The notes beneath the pieces are model-generated. The model was not told where the DNA came from and searched no databases. It saw nothing but the letters and a program-made list of their open reading frames with translations. Shown here piece after piece: positions 22,469-26,996 of a stretch of DNA of 41,106 bases. The number at the start of each line of letters is the position of its first letter. Position 1 is the first letter of the stretch. The stretch spans positions 1-41,106 of the forward strand of contig JAMOBD010000021.1 of assembly GCA_039908345.1 (NCBI GenBank), in the 5' to 3' direction. The stretch comes from Magnetospirillum sp. WYHS-4 (lineage in GTDB: Bacteria; Pseudomonadota; Alphaproteobacteria; Rhodospirillales; GLO-3). The translations under genes were made by a program, and so were the position numbers.

Positions 22469-22851
22469 CCGGGGGCGGCTTGCGAATCGACAAGTGGCTC
22501 TGGCATGCCCGTTTCTTCAAGAGCCGGACCCTGGCCGGCAAGGCCTGCACGGCCGGCGGCTTCCGCCTGAACGGCACCCCGACCGGCAAGGCCCATGCCT
22601 TGGTCAAGCCGGGCGATGTGCTGACGTTTCCCTTGGGGCCCCATATTCGGGTGATCCGGGTCGTCGCCCTCGGCACCCGGCGCGGTCCGGCGCCGGAAGC
22701 CCAAGGACTCTACAAGGATCTGGACCCGCCTAGGGCCAAGCCGCCGAATCCCGGCTCTCCGGCCTTGAGGGCCGCTGGCACCGGCCGCCCGACAAAGAAG
22801 GAGCGCCGGGCTATCGAACGGCTACGGTCGGGTTCCGAGCAAGAAACCTGA
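22465..22851 (+). CDS. S4-domain RNA-binding protein, Hsp15 (HslR)-like
   Basis: A 128-residue basic protein. The S4 RNA-binding fold starts LRIDKWLWHARFFKSRTLAG, the Hsp15 signature region. KPGDVLTF follows, and then a basic, proline-rich tail ending in KKERRAIERL. In E. coli, Hsp15 binds free 50S subunits with a stalled nascent chain and helps recycling. The start is GTG at 22465, overlapping the upstream stop (GTGA); there is no separate ribosome binding site, so translation should be coupled. It converges with the PAS gene (27 bp). Confidence 0.87.
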   Translation: MTGGGLRIDKWLWHARFFKSRTLAGKACTAGGFRLNGTPTGKAHALVKPGDVLTFPLGPHIRVIRVVALGTRRGPAPEAQGLYKDLDPPRAKPPNPGSPALRAAGTGRPTKKERRAIERLRSGSEQET

Positions 22852-22878: not shown

Positions 22879-23409
22879 TCAGGTGCCCAGGGCGAAGATC
22901 AACTCGTCGTACCGCATGCCCTTGTCCTTCAGCAGGTTCACCAGCATGGCGTGGGAGGCGTTCATGCCGTCCTTGGCGTTGGAATGCCGGTTCTCTTCCT
23001 GCAGGAGCTGGTTGTAGAGGGGGATGATAGTGGATGTCAGCACCGTCCGGTTGGGCACCCGGCGGTTGGAATGGTAGCCTACCAGGTTGCCCGAACCGTC
23101 GCGGCTCGGGGTGACGTGGGCCAGCACCCAGTAATGGTCGCCGTTGGCCGAGCGGTTGACCACATAGGCGAATATCTCGTGGCCGCCCTGGATGGTGTCC
23201 CAGAGCAGCTTGAAGACGCAACGCGGCATCTCGGGATGACGGATCATGCTGTGGGGCTGGCCGATGGCCTGCCTCTCGGTATAGCCGGCCATACGGAAGA
23301 AGACCTCGTTGCCGTAGGTGATACGGCCCTTCAGGTCCGTCTTGCTGACGATGATCTCGTGTTCGGCGAAGGTCCGCTCGACACCGGTGAGAAAGGTCGC
23401 TTGCACCAT
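22879..23409 (-). CDS. Free-standing Aer-type PAS protein (CetB-like)
   Basis: A 176-residue soluble protein with one PAS domain (about 15-125) that follows E. coli Aer closely: GRITYGNEVFFRMAGYT, IGQPHSMIRHPEMP and NGDHYWVLAHVTP. Counterparts of Aer FAD-pocket residues are N34, R57-H58, W70 and N85; the usual Asp after RHP is Glu (E60). A short helical C-terminal part (about 128-176) replaces the Aer membrane anchor and signalling domain. It begins 15 bp after the chemoreceptor gene on the same strand. I infer that it binds FAD, senses redox state and signals through that receptor, as CetB does with CetA in Campylobacter. Confidence 0.88.
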   Translation of the reverse strand: MVQATFLTGVERTFAEHEIIVSKTDLKGRITYGNEVFFRMAGYTERQAIGQPHSMIRHPEMPRCVFKLLWDTIQGGHEIFAYVVNRSANGDHYWVLAHVTPSRDGSGNLVGYHSNRRVPNRTVLTSTIIPLYNQLLQEENRHSNAKDGMNASHAMLVNLLKDKGMRYDELIFALGT

Positions 23410-23424
23410 GGTAAGGGGTTCCTC

Positions 23425-24723
23425 TCAGACGACTTTACGGAGTTCGGACAGGAAACCGTCCACGGCACGGCGCAGGTTTTCGGCTTGCTCGGACAGTTCG
23501 GCGGCGGCTTGGAGAACTTCGCCGGCGGCATGGCCGGTCTCGGTGGCGGCGGCGGTGACGTCGACGATGTTGGAGGTCACCTCGGTGGTGCCCTGTGAAG
23601 CCTGCTGGACGCTCTGGGCGATCTCGCGGGTGGCGGCGCCCTGTTCCTCGACCGCGGCGGCGATGGTGGTCGCGGCATTTTTGATGCCGGCCATGGAACG
23701 GGTGATTTCGTCGATGGCGTTCACCGCGTCCTGGGTGGCCGACTGGATGCCGCCGATCTGGCCCGAGATTTCCTCGGTCGCCTTGGCGGTCTGGTTGGCC
23801 AGGTTCTTCACCTCCGAGGCGACGACGGCGAAGCCCTTGCCGGCCTCGCCCGCCCTGGCCGCCTCGATGGTGGCGTTGAGCGCCAGCAGGTTGGTCTGGT
23901 CGGCGATATCGGTGATCAGGTTGACCACCTCGCCGATCTTCTGGGCGGCGGCAGCCAGCCCCTTGATCTGCATGTTGGTGCGCTCGGTGCGCGTCATGGC
24001 CTCCTGGGAGGCGTCGGCCGACTGGTTGACCTGGCGGGTGATTTCCTCGACCGAGGCCGAAAGCTCCTCGGTTGCCGCGGCCACGGTCTGGACGTTCTGT
24101 GCCGCGCCTTCGGCGGCGTTCGCCACCACGGTGGCCTGGCGGCTGGTGGTCGAGGCGGTGCTTTCCATGGCCCCGGCCGAGGCCTGCAGTTCGGTGGCGG
24201 CCGAAGCCAGGGTGCCGACCACCTTCTGCACCGATGCCTCGAAGGCGTCCGCGACCTTGCGGAAGTTGGCGACCTTGCCGTTCATGGCGCCGATAGCCGC
24301 GTTGACCGTACGGGCGCCGCTGGTGAAGGCTCCCGTCGTGCCCTTCTCGATGATGCGGCGGAAGTAACGGTTCTGGGCCACGTATTCCATGGCGGCGCCC
24401 GATTCGCGCACGAAGGCGTCGGTGCGGTCGATCATGTTGTTGAGGGTCTTGTGCAGGTCGCCCATGCGGCCCTTGGCGTCGGAAAGCACGATGCGGGCCT
24501 CGAAGTCGCCCTTGTCGATGGCCTTGCAGACCGCCAGGGCCTGGGCGATCTCCGTGTCCACCCTGCGCAGGAAGAAGATGGGCAGAAGGGCTAGAACCAC
24601 CGCGCCCAGCGCCATCGCGGTCTTGATGCCGAAGCCGGAAACGACGATATCCAGCACAATGGAAACGGCGGCCAGGATGGCGACCATTGCCGCCGCGATC
24701 ATGGATTTCGTCAGGTTGCACAT
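23425..24723 (-). CDS. Methyl-accepting chemotaxis protein lacking a periplasmic domain (CetA-like)
   Basis: A 432-residue chemoreceptor. Two adjacent membrane helices (about 8-30 and 34-52) are joined by only a few residues, so there is no periplasmic sensor. A HAMP-like region (about 53-108) and a conserved linker ([20 protein letters not shown]) lead into the cytoplasmic signalling coiled coil. Its hairpin tip reads [21 protein letters not shown] and continues [22 protein letters not shown]. No CheR-docking pentapeptide is at the C-terminus (SELRKVV). The ribosome binding site is very strong (AAGGAGGGGG). With no sensory domain of its own it most likely takes input from the PAS protein encoded 15 bp downstream. 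Confidence 0.93.
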
Positions 24724-24826
24724 GAACTAGCCCCCTCCTTCAAAGCCAAAAAGTACAGTTGGGATAGAGTACCAGATTGCTAAATTTTGTAACTACAATT
24801 GAACGATATGATCTCGCATTATTGAT

Positions 24827-25579
24827 CTACTCCCGCCAGAACCGAAGCAATGCCAAGTCGACAAACGACTTGCCCCGCATATCCGCCGCCACCGGCCGGC
24901 AAGGCGCGTCGGGATCGCCCAGATCGCAGACTACCGCCAGGGCCCCGGTCAGGTCGTCGTGGCGGGTATAGGTCGCAACGGTGGCGACCACGGGCAACCC
25001 GGCGGCCAGGGCGGCGCGCAGGCCGTTGCGGGAGTCTTCCAGGGCCAGGCAGGCGGCAGCAGGCAGGCCCAGCCTTTCCAGCACCCAGAGATAGATGTCG
25101 GGGGCCGGCTTCAGGGCGGGCACGCAGTTGCCGGCGCCGATGACATCGAACCAGTCCCCGGCTTCCGGCCCGCCGCTGGCGGCCAGCAGGGTGGACACAT
25201 TCTCGGGGCTGGTGGTGGTGGCGATGGCGAGCTTCAGGCCGGCCGCCTTGGCTTCGCGGATCAGGCGCACCACGCCCGGCCGGAACGGCACGCCGCCCGA
25301 GCGCAGGCGTTCGTTGTAAAGCGCGGTCTTGCGTTCGTGCAGTTTCCGGGCGAACGCTTCCGCCTCCTGCCCGCCGGGGGGGACGAAACCAACCTCGGCC
25401 ATGTGGCGCAAGATGCGCTGGCGCCCGCCGGTGGTGCCCAGCAGGCGTTCGTAGTCCGCCACCGACCAGTCCCAGGGCAGGCCCGATTCGCGGAAGGTCT
25501 CGTTGAAGGAAAGACGATGGGCTTCCTCGGTTTCGGCGAGGGTGCCGTCGACGTCGAACACCAGGGCTTGCAGAGTCAT
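24827..25579 (-). CDS. HAD-family hydrolase, CbbY-like
   Basis: A 250-residue haloacid dehalogenase superfamily subfamily IA phosphatase. Motif I is VFDVDGTLAETE with the nucleophilic Asp, motif II is the Thr in LAIATTTSPENV, and motifs III and IV are LKPAPDIYLW and CLALEDSRNGLRAA. The helical cap starts at about residue 20 (HRLSFNETFRESGLPWDW) as in CbbY proteins. CbbY of Rhodobacter degrades xylulose-1,5-bisphosphate, but no Rubisco gene is in the window and the true substrate is open. It lies 10 bp downstream of the secreted hypothetical protein's stop-side neighbour region and is read in the same direction as it. Confidence 0.9.
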   Translation of the reverse strand: MTLQALVFDVDGTLAETEEAHRLSFNETFRESGLPWDWSVADYERLLGTTGGRQRILRHMAEVGFVPPGGQEAEAFARKLHERKTALYNERLRSGGVPFRPGVVRLIREAKAAGLKLAIATTTSPENVSTLLAASGGPEAGDWFDVIGAGNCVPALKPAPDIYLWVLERLGLPAAACLALEDSRNGLRAALAAGLPVVATVATYTRHDDLTGALAVVCDLGDPDAPCRPVAADMRGKSFVDLALLRFWRE

Positions 25580-26147: not shown

Positions 26148-26172
26148 GGTCGCAAGGTCTCCTGCAATTGAT

Positions 26173-26201
26173 TGGCGGGCGATGCGGCCTATGTGTATAA
26201 G
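26173..26201 (+). promoter_or_regulatory. Candidate promoter for the FKBP-rhodanese gene
   Basis: TTGGCG (26173-26178) and GTATAA (26196-26201) are 17 bp apart in the 87-bp divergent gap, giving a leader of about 28 nt before ATG 26235. It fits sigma-70 spacing, but the boxes are imperfect. Confidence 0.35.
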
Positions 26202-26234
26202 CGTCCTCCCATCCCGAAACCAAGGATTCTCGCC

Positions 26235-26996
26235 ATGACCTTCCGCTCCGTCCGCTTCGCCTTCGCGGCCCTTCTGGCTTTCGCGGCCCCGCCGGCCGGT
26301 GCCGCCGGGCCCGAGGTCGCCGTCAAGGAACTGGCCGTCGGCACGGGTGCCGTCGCCAAGCCGGGCGCCACGGTGACCGTCCATTACACGGGCTGGCTGA
26401 TGGACGGCAAGAAGTTCGACTCCAGCCGCGACCGCAAGGAGCCCTTCGACTTCACCCTGGGGGCGGGCGAGGTCATCCCCGGCTGGGAAAAGGGAGTCGA
26501 AGGCATGAAGGTCGGGGCCAAGCGCGAACTGACCATTCCGCCCGAACTGGGTTACGGTCCGGAAGGCGCGGGCGGCGTCATTCCGCCCAACGCGACGCTG
26601 CGGTTCGAGGTGGAACTGCTGGCCGTCGCCGAGGCCAAGTACGACGACGTCGACAATGCCAAGCTCAAGGAACTGCTGGCCAAGGGTGTGAAGATCGTCG
26701 ATATCCGCCGTGACGAGGAATGGCGCCAGACCGGTGTCGTCGAGGGCAGCAAGCTGATCACCTTCTTCGACAAGCGCGGCAAGGTGAACCCGGAATTCGG
26801 CAAGGAGTTCTCCGCCTTCGTCAAGCCGGAAGAACCGGTGATCCTGATCTGCCGCACCGGCAACCGCACCCGGGTGGTGTCCAAGTTCCTCAGTGAGAAG
26901 GTGGGCTACGCCAAGGTCTACAACGTGACCGACGGCATCGTCCGCTGGACCAAGGAAGGCCATCCGGTCGTCAAGGCGCAGTGCCCGGCCTGCTGA
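26235..26996 (+). CDS. Secreted FKBP-type prolyl isomerase fused to a rhodanese domain
   Basis: A 253-residue two-domain periplasmic protein. The signal peptide covers about residues 1-24 (ending AAPPAGAAG). The FKBP domain (about 28-135) has [33 protein letters not shown] and the PPELGYG loop, a complete prolyl isomerase set. The rhodanese domain (about 140-245) has the active-site loop C206-R-T-G-N-R. The last four residues are C250-P-A-C253, a possible redox pair. The predicted role is folding plus thiol or sulfur chemistry in the periplasm; the combination is inferred from domains. ATG 26235 is chosen because it begins the signal peptide. Confidence 0.9.

Follow-up and report, generated by a model that had tools for sequence, protein, structure and literature searches.

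A probable CetA/CetB-type energy-taxis receptor with receptor-first gene order in Magnetospirillum sp. WYHS-4

Introduction

Can a chemoreceptor without a sensor of its own and a soluble PAS protein encoded beside it form one two-part energy sensor, and how is such a pair from a bacterium with magnetosome genes related to those already described? The question is raised by two adjacent genes at positions 22879–24723 of contig JAMOBD010000021.1 of Magnetospirillum sp. WYHS-4 (assembly GCA_039908345.1), of which the whole stretch analysed here, 41,106 nucleotides in length, is referred to as the window. Sequence comparison and structure prediction make it highly probable that the pair is a CetA/CetB-type bipartite energy-taxis receptor, as a first-pass annotation of the sequence had proposed: the adjacency of the two genes across genomes, the conservation of the pocket for flavin adenine dinucleotide (FAD) and an Aer-like predicted fold agree with this assignment.

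Bipartite receptors are treated as a class in a 2026 review (PMC13401364). In Campylobacter jejuni, cetA and cetB are reported to be co-transcribed, with 17 bp between them; CetA is a membrane protein of the hairpin type, and both genes are needed for energy taxis, the evidence for interaction of their products being indirect; the same authors report 55 HAMP/PAS pairs (Elliott and DiRita 2008, PMC2628428). Upstream of cetA, C. jejuni carries cetC, which encodes a paralogue of CetB (Reuter and van Vliet 2013, PMC3558505). CetA/CetB-type receptors are also known from an alphaproteobacterium, Magnetospirillum gryphiswaldense, in which CetB2 is reported to bind FAD and to interact with CetA2, both proteins being needed for energy taxis and the pair driving an oxygen-repellent response and acting independently of magnetic fields (Herz et al. 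2025, PMC12442639). The occurrence of such a receptor in an alphaproteobacterium, put forward in the first-pass annotation, is thus supported by our analysis but is not new, given this experimental case. What is new here is modest, namely an unusual gene order and a separate place in the receptor tree. The pair extends the known bipartite energy receptors to one more lineage carrying magnetosome genes, and the role of such receptors in oxygen versus magnetic sensing is disputed in print (PMC12442639 versus the work on Amb0994).

Results

The two genes lie adjacent and co-directional on the reverse strand and encode a sensor-less methyl-accepting chemotaxis protein (MCP) and a stand-alone PAS protein. 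The cetA-like gene (23425–24723, −) encodes a 432-residue membrane chemoreceptor without a sensor domain of its own, and the cetB-like gene (22879–23409, −) a 176-residue PAS protein with a predicted Aer-type FAD pocket. The coordinates of the open reading frames (ORFs) confirm the annotated 15-bp distance between them; the spacer GAGGAACCCCTTACC (23410–23424, −) runs from the cetA stop to the cetB ATG and contains, directly 3' of the stop codon, the ribosome-binding-site-like stretch GAGGA, whose position makes translational coupling of the two genes plausible.

The PAS protein matches Pfam PAS_3 (E 1.6e-12), and its best sequence match in the PDB is the PAS domain of Escherichia coli Aer (8dik, E 9.3e-27), followed by a longer Aer chain and MmoS. 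An AlphaFold2 model built from 36 sequences reached a mean predicted local distance difference test score (pLDDT) of 92.6, and its top Foldseek match was again Aer 8dik (target-normalised template-modelling score 0.94, root-mean-square deviation 1.1 Å, 39% identity), with NifL second. By alignment, model and Foldseek match, the PAS core spans approximately residues 20–117 (23059–23352, −) and holds the presumed FAD contacts H53, R57, F66, W70, N85, V99 and R116, while the C-terminal helices (residues 121–175; 22885–23049, −; pLDDT 78–96 by block) fall mostly outside the Aer-matched part.

The pocket was examined over 112 different CetB sequences, the window protein included. Residues N34, H53, R57, W70 and R116 are each present in 112/112, N85 in 111, F66 in 109 and V99 in 106; position 58 is His in 98 and Asn in 14. 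The first-pass annotation had placed N34, R57, H58, W70, N85 and E60 correctly, and it had singled out the Glu at the usual Asp of the RHPD motif; E60 is indeed present, but it is not unusual, because position 60 is Glu in 18 of the 112 sequences (Asp 54, His 10, Ala 9, Asn 8, others 13), and it is thus a common state. FAD contacts in the Aer structure are reported to include H53, R57, M69, W70, N85 and R115 (PMC9668731); the counterpart of M69 is L69 in the window CetB, and Leu occupies this position in 109/112 sequences. Those named for CetB2 are His54, Asn55, Arg58, Phe67, Trp71, Asn86, Val100 and Arg117 (PMC12442639), in a numbering that runs one higher than that of the window protein, which keeps seven of the eight; Asn55 is replaced by Ser54, and Ser is found here in 88/112 CetBs. 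As judged by alignment and predicted structure, the window CetB thus carries an Aer-type FAD pocket and an Aer-like fold.

The receptor matches Pfam MCPsignal (E 1.6e-32) over residues 233–390 (23554–24027, −). Two adjacent membrane helices and the lack of a periplasmic sensor had been recognised from the sequence, and both features are borne out: hydropathy identifies transmembrane segments at approximately residues 9–27 (24643–24699, −) and 33–51 (24571–24627, −), separated by a turn of about five residues that leaves no space for a periplasmic domain, and AlphaFold2 predicts helices at residues 2–27 and 31–70, with low confidence near the N-terminus. The model thus depicts CetA as a two-helix membrane hairpin without a periplasmic domain. 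An alignment of 27 CetA-type receptors and a helix-connector-helix arrangement in the model point to a HAMP-type region at approximately residues 53–116 (24376–24567, −), the presumed zone of CetB docking and signal conversion; nine HAMP residues of the family were reportedly defined by Elliott et al. in 2009.

Among the 26 other aligned receptors, all from CetB-CetA pairs of the order, the window receptor is 57–64% identical to nine and 37–56% identical to the remaining 17; the closest are those of loci L011 (64%, genome G050) and L017 (63%, genome G005). Its residues 164–425 align without a gap (262 residues) to the signalling domain of the CetA2 candidate described below, so that the two probably share a heptad class, CetA2 being predicted to belong to the 38-heptad class (Herz et al. 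2025, PMC12442639). As a separate observation, 72 of 165 CetB-paired receptors, L011 and L017 among them, lack a hydrophobic N-terminal segment by a crude hydropathy threshold, and soluble two-part receptors therefore seem to be frequent.

How regularly the two genes occur together was surveyed at two levels. Searching 297 genomes of the order with the window CetB (E at most 1e-25) gave matches in 161; in four of these the matches are all weak (E 1e-26 to 2e-29) and may be one-piece receptors, and the other 157 match at 1e-53 or better. In a class-level sample of 385 genomes, 58 match with E no higher than 1e-40; the order contributes four of these, including the host. The main gene-order survey comprised 111 order loci (two from the host and 109 among the best of the matches listed), 80 named loci (the best 80 of 593 relatives), and 12 loci of genomes G215 and G139; removal of DNA duplicates left 199 distinct CetB genes, the window one included. 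All loci were fetched via CetB, and the sampling is biased towards close relatives of the window protein; gene starts were set at the first possible codon, so that overlap lengths are rough.

In this main survey a co-directional MCP gene lies within 300 bp at 180 of the 199 distinct CetB loci, the window included, and elsewhere in the class the same holds for 78 of 82 CetB genes, so that the survey of adjacency called for in the first-pass annotation speaks for partnership. The PAS gene precedes the receptor gene (B-A) at 175 of the 199 loci; four have receptors on both sides (L029/L088, L121, L136 and L199), at 19 the stretch examined contains no MCP gene closer than 300 bp, and only the window shows the reverse order (A-B) alone. 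The 82 class-level genes, which were not de-duplicated against the named set and from which two loci of the order were left out, divide into 72 B-A, three A-B, three with receptors on both sides (L278, L323 and L329) and four without an MCP within 300 bp. The A-B loci are L259/L304 with a 10-bp gap, L264/L324 (A-B-B, 8 bp) and L290 (B-A-B, 202-bp gap), and the notion that the order in the window is unique was accordingly rejected. Receptor-then-PAS order is nevertheless rare among the alphaproteobacterial loci examined. The annotated correspondence to Campylobacter CetA/CetB in parts and order is therefore true, but it makes the window an exception among these loci, where PAS-then-receptor order dominates.

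Among the titles and abstract openings listed, none was found to deal with the gene order of such pairs, Elliott et al. 2009 lying outside the scope of that search. As a guess, the A-B order might have arisen from a tandem B-A-B-A ancestor by loss of the outer genes. Loci with a receptor on either side of a CetB do occur, as listed above, but the idea stays a guess because, when the 103-bp stretch preceding cetA in the window was compared with 60 CetBs, no remnant of a cetB was seen (score 33; shuffled sequences averaged 32.6 and reached at most 40). Loci with this rare order provide a natural experiment on the importance of order and translational coupling for assembly. Two CetB relatives on contig 1 of G406, a one-contig genome of 1.4 Mb, each contain an internal stop codon (345808–346305 and 347619–348116), possibly reflecting decay of the system.

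For comparison with the pairs described from other Magnetospirillum species we used genomes G215, which we take to be M. magneticum AMB-1, and G139, presumably M. gryphiswaldense MSR-1. All 11 CetB-receptor pairs examined in these two genomes are B-A, and one CetB stands alone. Locus L252 of G139 fits CetB2 by the numbering of His54, Asn55 and Arg58 and is our candidate for cetBA2; since we find five pairs in this genome, versus four pairs and one lone CetB reported in PMC12442639, the naming of its loci is inexact. Locus L244 of G215, 27–29 kb from mamK, is the candidate for Amb0995/0994. Its receptor is 41–44% identical to that of L252, and the printed identity of Amb0994 and CetA2 is 42.1% (PMC12442639); the real argument for L244 is its distance from mamK, because other receptors of G215 give nearly the same identity. 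The genome has two mamK-type genes. A PAS-receptor pair nearly identical to L244 lies at 2.39 Mb (L245); the likely amb0994-0995 pair has probably been duplicated recently.

The window pair shares with CetBA2 an alphaproteobacterial background with magnetosomes and the combination of a sensor-less membrane receptor with a stand-alone Aer-type PAS protein, to which the pocket residues and the gap-free signalling-domain alignment described above may be added. However, cetB2 precedes and overlaps cetA2, whereas in the window cetA comes first with a 15-bp gap, and the receptors are only about 39% and the PAS proteins 59% identical, taking L252 as the presumed cetBA2. With Amb0994/Amb0995 of M. magneticum AMB-1 it shares the bipartite MCP-PAS organisation in a magnetotactic alphaproteobacterium (PMC6056624, PMC12442639); at the likely locus, identities to the window pair are 46% (receptor) and 56% (PAS protein), but the PAS gene comes first and the receptor belongs to a set of 14 rows in the receptor tree from which the window receptor is excluded. 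Orthology of the window pair to Amb0994/0995 or CetBA2 was therefore rejected on identity, receptor tree and gene order, both loci being candidates. The C. jejuni system resembles the window pair in its parts, in their order (cetA then cetB) and in the two-helix membrane hairpin, and differs in having cetC upstream of cetA, where the window has a gene for a HAD-family hydrolase. Aer of E. coli (8dik, PMC9668731) shares the PAS fold, most FAD contacts, a hairpin membrane anchor and cytoplasmic sensing, but unites in one protein what the window divides between two.

An early receptor tree, built without knowledge of the other A-B loci, left the window receptor unplaced; the 14-row set of this tree that holds the CetBA2 and Amb0994 candidates (SH-aLRT 99) excludes it. 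With those loci included, the receptors of the window, L259 and L264 group together with support of 98 (124 rows) and 96 (62 rows) in the Shimodaira–Hasegawa-like approximate likelihood ratio test (SH-aLRT). A careful tree gave the three-receptor group a bootstrap of 99, a value that had not settled, and an SH-aLRT of 83. L264 forms a long branch, and both L259 and L264 are of odd composition. After removal of L264 the window receptor still joins L259 (SH-aLRT 99); after removal of L259 it is unplaced (support 47) and L264 falls outside its set. Of the two links, that to L259 alone is firm. The trees thus give good support to a common origin for the window receptor and that of L259, each from an A-B locus, and weak support to membership of the L264 receptor in the same lineage. 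The receptor of the B-A-B locus L290 lies outside the clade of window, L259 and L264.

The host genome contains 16 MCP-domain and eight CheW-domain matches and two CetB-type PAS proteins, 62% identical to each other, both of which adjoin one of the MCP matches, an association greater than chance would give. The second pair, on contig 25 (L227:5195–7370), has cetB first, overlapping the gene for a 557-residue receptor, and lies a few kb from CheW-domain matches. That receptor needs 20 gap positions in the signalling-domain alignment to the CetA2 candidate, whereas the window receptor needs none, and the signalling domains of the two host receptors are therefore probably of different classes. 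The host yielded no one-piece Aer, since none of its ten other PAS matches (24–33% identical, in frames of 444–1237 residues) lies in an MCP match; with the same query, receptors of this kind are detected in G215 and G139 at E 1e-27 to 4e-33. The only other genome of the host's family in the sample, G014, gave no CetB match at E 1e-20.

Contig 56 of the host (L226, 1105–15030) carries, by NCBIfam matches, mamH-E-K-M-N-O-P-A-Q, with a repeat-rich acidic ORF between mamE and mamK that is MamJ-like by position and composition. The mamK gene, reached via a search for the MreB family, scores 509.5 bits against NCBIfam MamK (cut-off 400), and its product matches the solved actin-like ATPase 5ljv (E 2e-139), which we take to be a MamK structure; MamE (692) and MamO (753) score below their curated cut-offs of 800 and the other seven mam genes above theirs. 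The host is thus very probably magnetotactic. Across the order, mamK was found at E at most 1e-60 in 35 of the 297 genomes, and CetB matches occur in 28 of these 35 versus 133 of the 262 others (Fisher p 0.001, without correction for relatedness), or in 27 versus 130 when the four weak-match genomes are set aside. Since about half of the MamK-negative order genomes sampled carry CetB, the CetB-CetA module is not tied to magnetosomes.

Discussion

From these comparisons the following working model can be drawn, in which we infer FAD binding, docking of CetB and signal flow from relatives of the window pair. Soluble CetB would hold FAD in its Aer-type pocket and track the redox state of the respiratory chain while docked on the HAMP region of membrane-anchored CetA, with one CetB per CetA chain of the dimer if the CetBA2 model of Herz et al. 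applies. A change in flavin state would alter the PAS-HAMP contact and be passed through the signalling bundle to CheW and CheA, and the cell would swim towards or away from a given level of oxygen or electron acceptor. By analogy with CetBA2, which serves a microaerophilic magnetotactic bacterium, an oxygen-repellent role appears somewhat likelier than an attractant one.

Several results weigh against this assignment. Pfam HAMP does not match the window receptor even with the E limit relaxed to 1, a lax threshold at which 23 of the 27 aligned receptors match (best E 5.8e-8); pairing is not universal, since the 19 of 199 and four of 82 CetB loci mentioned above have no MCP nearby; and the CetB trees give no support for the place of the window protein, an approximately unbiased (AU) test of the CetB tree failing to reject a clade of window, L259 and L264 (p-AU 0.383), which is no support either. 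The lack of resolution of the CetB trees, together with a PAS gene that lies downstream of the receptor, contrary to 175 of the 199 distinct loci, would also fit two unrelated genes standing side by side by accident, with the PAS protein serving another system. We give this explanation a very slim chance: the genes lie on the same strand with a 15-bp spacing, two other alphaproteobacterial loci share the order with gaps of 8–10 bp, the window receptor clusters with that of one of these, L259 (SH-aLRT 99), and it lacks a built-in sensor domain.

The magnetosome genes of the host raise the possibility of magnetoreception, in which the receptor, with the PAS protein in an accessory role, would read the torque of the magnetosome chain via MamK in the way proposed for Amb0994/Amb0995. 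Besides mamK and eight other mam genes in the host, the higher frequency of CetB matches in MamK genomes (28/35 versus 133/262) would fit this proposal, and among full-length matches to the window receptor in the genome taken as AMB-1, the likely Amb0994 ranks first (48%, residues 31–427), with the copy at 2.39 Mb almost equal. It is nonetheless very improbable, given the many MamK-negative genomes with CetB, an identity of 46% to the likely Amb0994 versus 57–64% to nine of the 26 aligned receptors, and the origin of the two closest receptors, L011 and L017, from genomes outside the 35 MamK-positive ones; CetBA2 itself is reported to act independently of magnetic fields (PMC12442639). Blue-light reception, with the PAS protein as a LOV-type photosensor binding flavin mononucleotide and feeding the MCP, is extremely unlikely. 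LOV domains are among the PDB matches of the PAS protein, but Aer, MmoS and NifL outrank them by sequence and Aer and NifL by fold. The cysteine that forms the LOV photoadduct lies in the motif GxNCRFLQ, which is not seen in the PAS protein (GQPHSMIRHP at that stretch); the Aer-type residues H53, R57, W70, N85 and R116, by contrast, are all present. A further point in favour of light sensing is that Amb0994 has been linked with a LOV protein to a blue-light response (cited in PMC13154873).

Taking the pair as a bipartite energy-taxis receptor, one may ask how a free PAS protein retains its flavin. The isolated Aer PAS domain is reported to be a soluble FAD protein only after stabilisation by S28G, A65V and A99V (Aer-PAS-GVV; PMC9668731), and G28, V65 and V99 are all native in the window CetB. 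Among the 112 CetBs, G28 is present in 112, V99 in 106, and position 65 is Val in 79, Ile in 31 and Ala in two. Eight one-piece Aer-type receptors, a small and partly related sample drawn from G215 and G139 (four) and named plasmid records (four), each with the MCP domain in the same ORF, have Ala65 in seven, G28 in seven and V99 in six. The three residues together were therefore rejected as a mark of free PAS proteins, and because G28 and V99 are also common in one-piece receptors, only position 65 separates the two forms (Val/Ile in 110/112 versus Ala in 7/8). We infer that a free PAS domain requires a tighter pocket, and the pattern at position 65 offers a simple mutational route to explaining the firmer hold of free PAS sensors on flavin compared with the isolated Aer PAS domain.

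A broader proposal, which we consider possible but rather doubtful, is that the A-B order marks a separate minor alphaproteobacterial lineage, perhaps spread between orders as a two-gene unit, that a bacterium carrying magnetosome genes draws on this lineage and not on the CetBA2 or Amb0994 lineage, and that stand-alone CetBs fixed the FAD-stabilising V/I65 since a free PAS protein must hold flavin without a covalent receptor partner. If the host indeed uses neither the CetBA2 nor the Amb0994 lineage, it would follow that bacteria of this kind took up bipartite sensors on more than one occasion.

Surroundings of the locus

The 103-bp intergenic stretch upstream of cetA (24724–24826, no strand assigned), which carries GAAGGAGGGGG before the ATG, is the presumed promoter region; its GC content is 38%, versus 67% for the window, and a scan of it for a sigma-70-type consensus gave no match. 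Beyond it lies the upstream neighbour of cetA, the HAD-family hydrolase gene (24827–25579, Pfam), and downstream of cetB an S4-domain gene on the opposite strand ends at 22851. Farther along the window, an ORF at 26172–26996 (+) encodes an FKBP-type isomerase domain fused to a rhodanese domain (Pfam).

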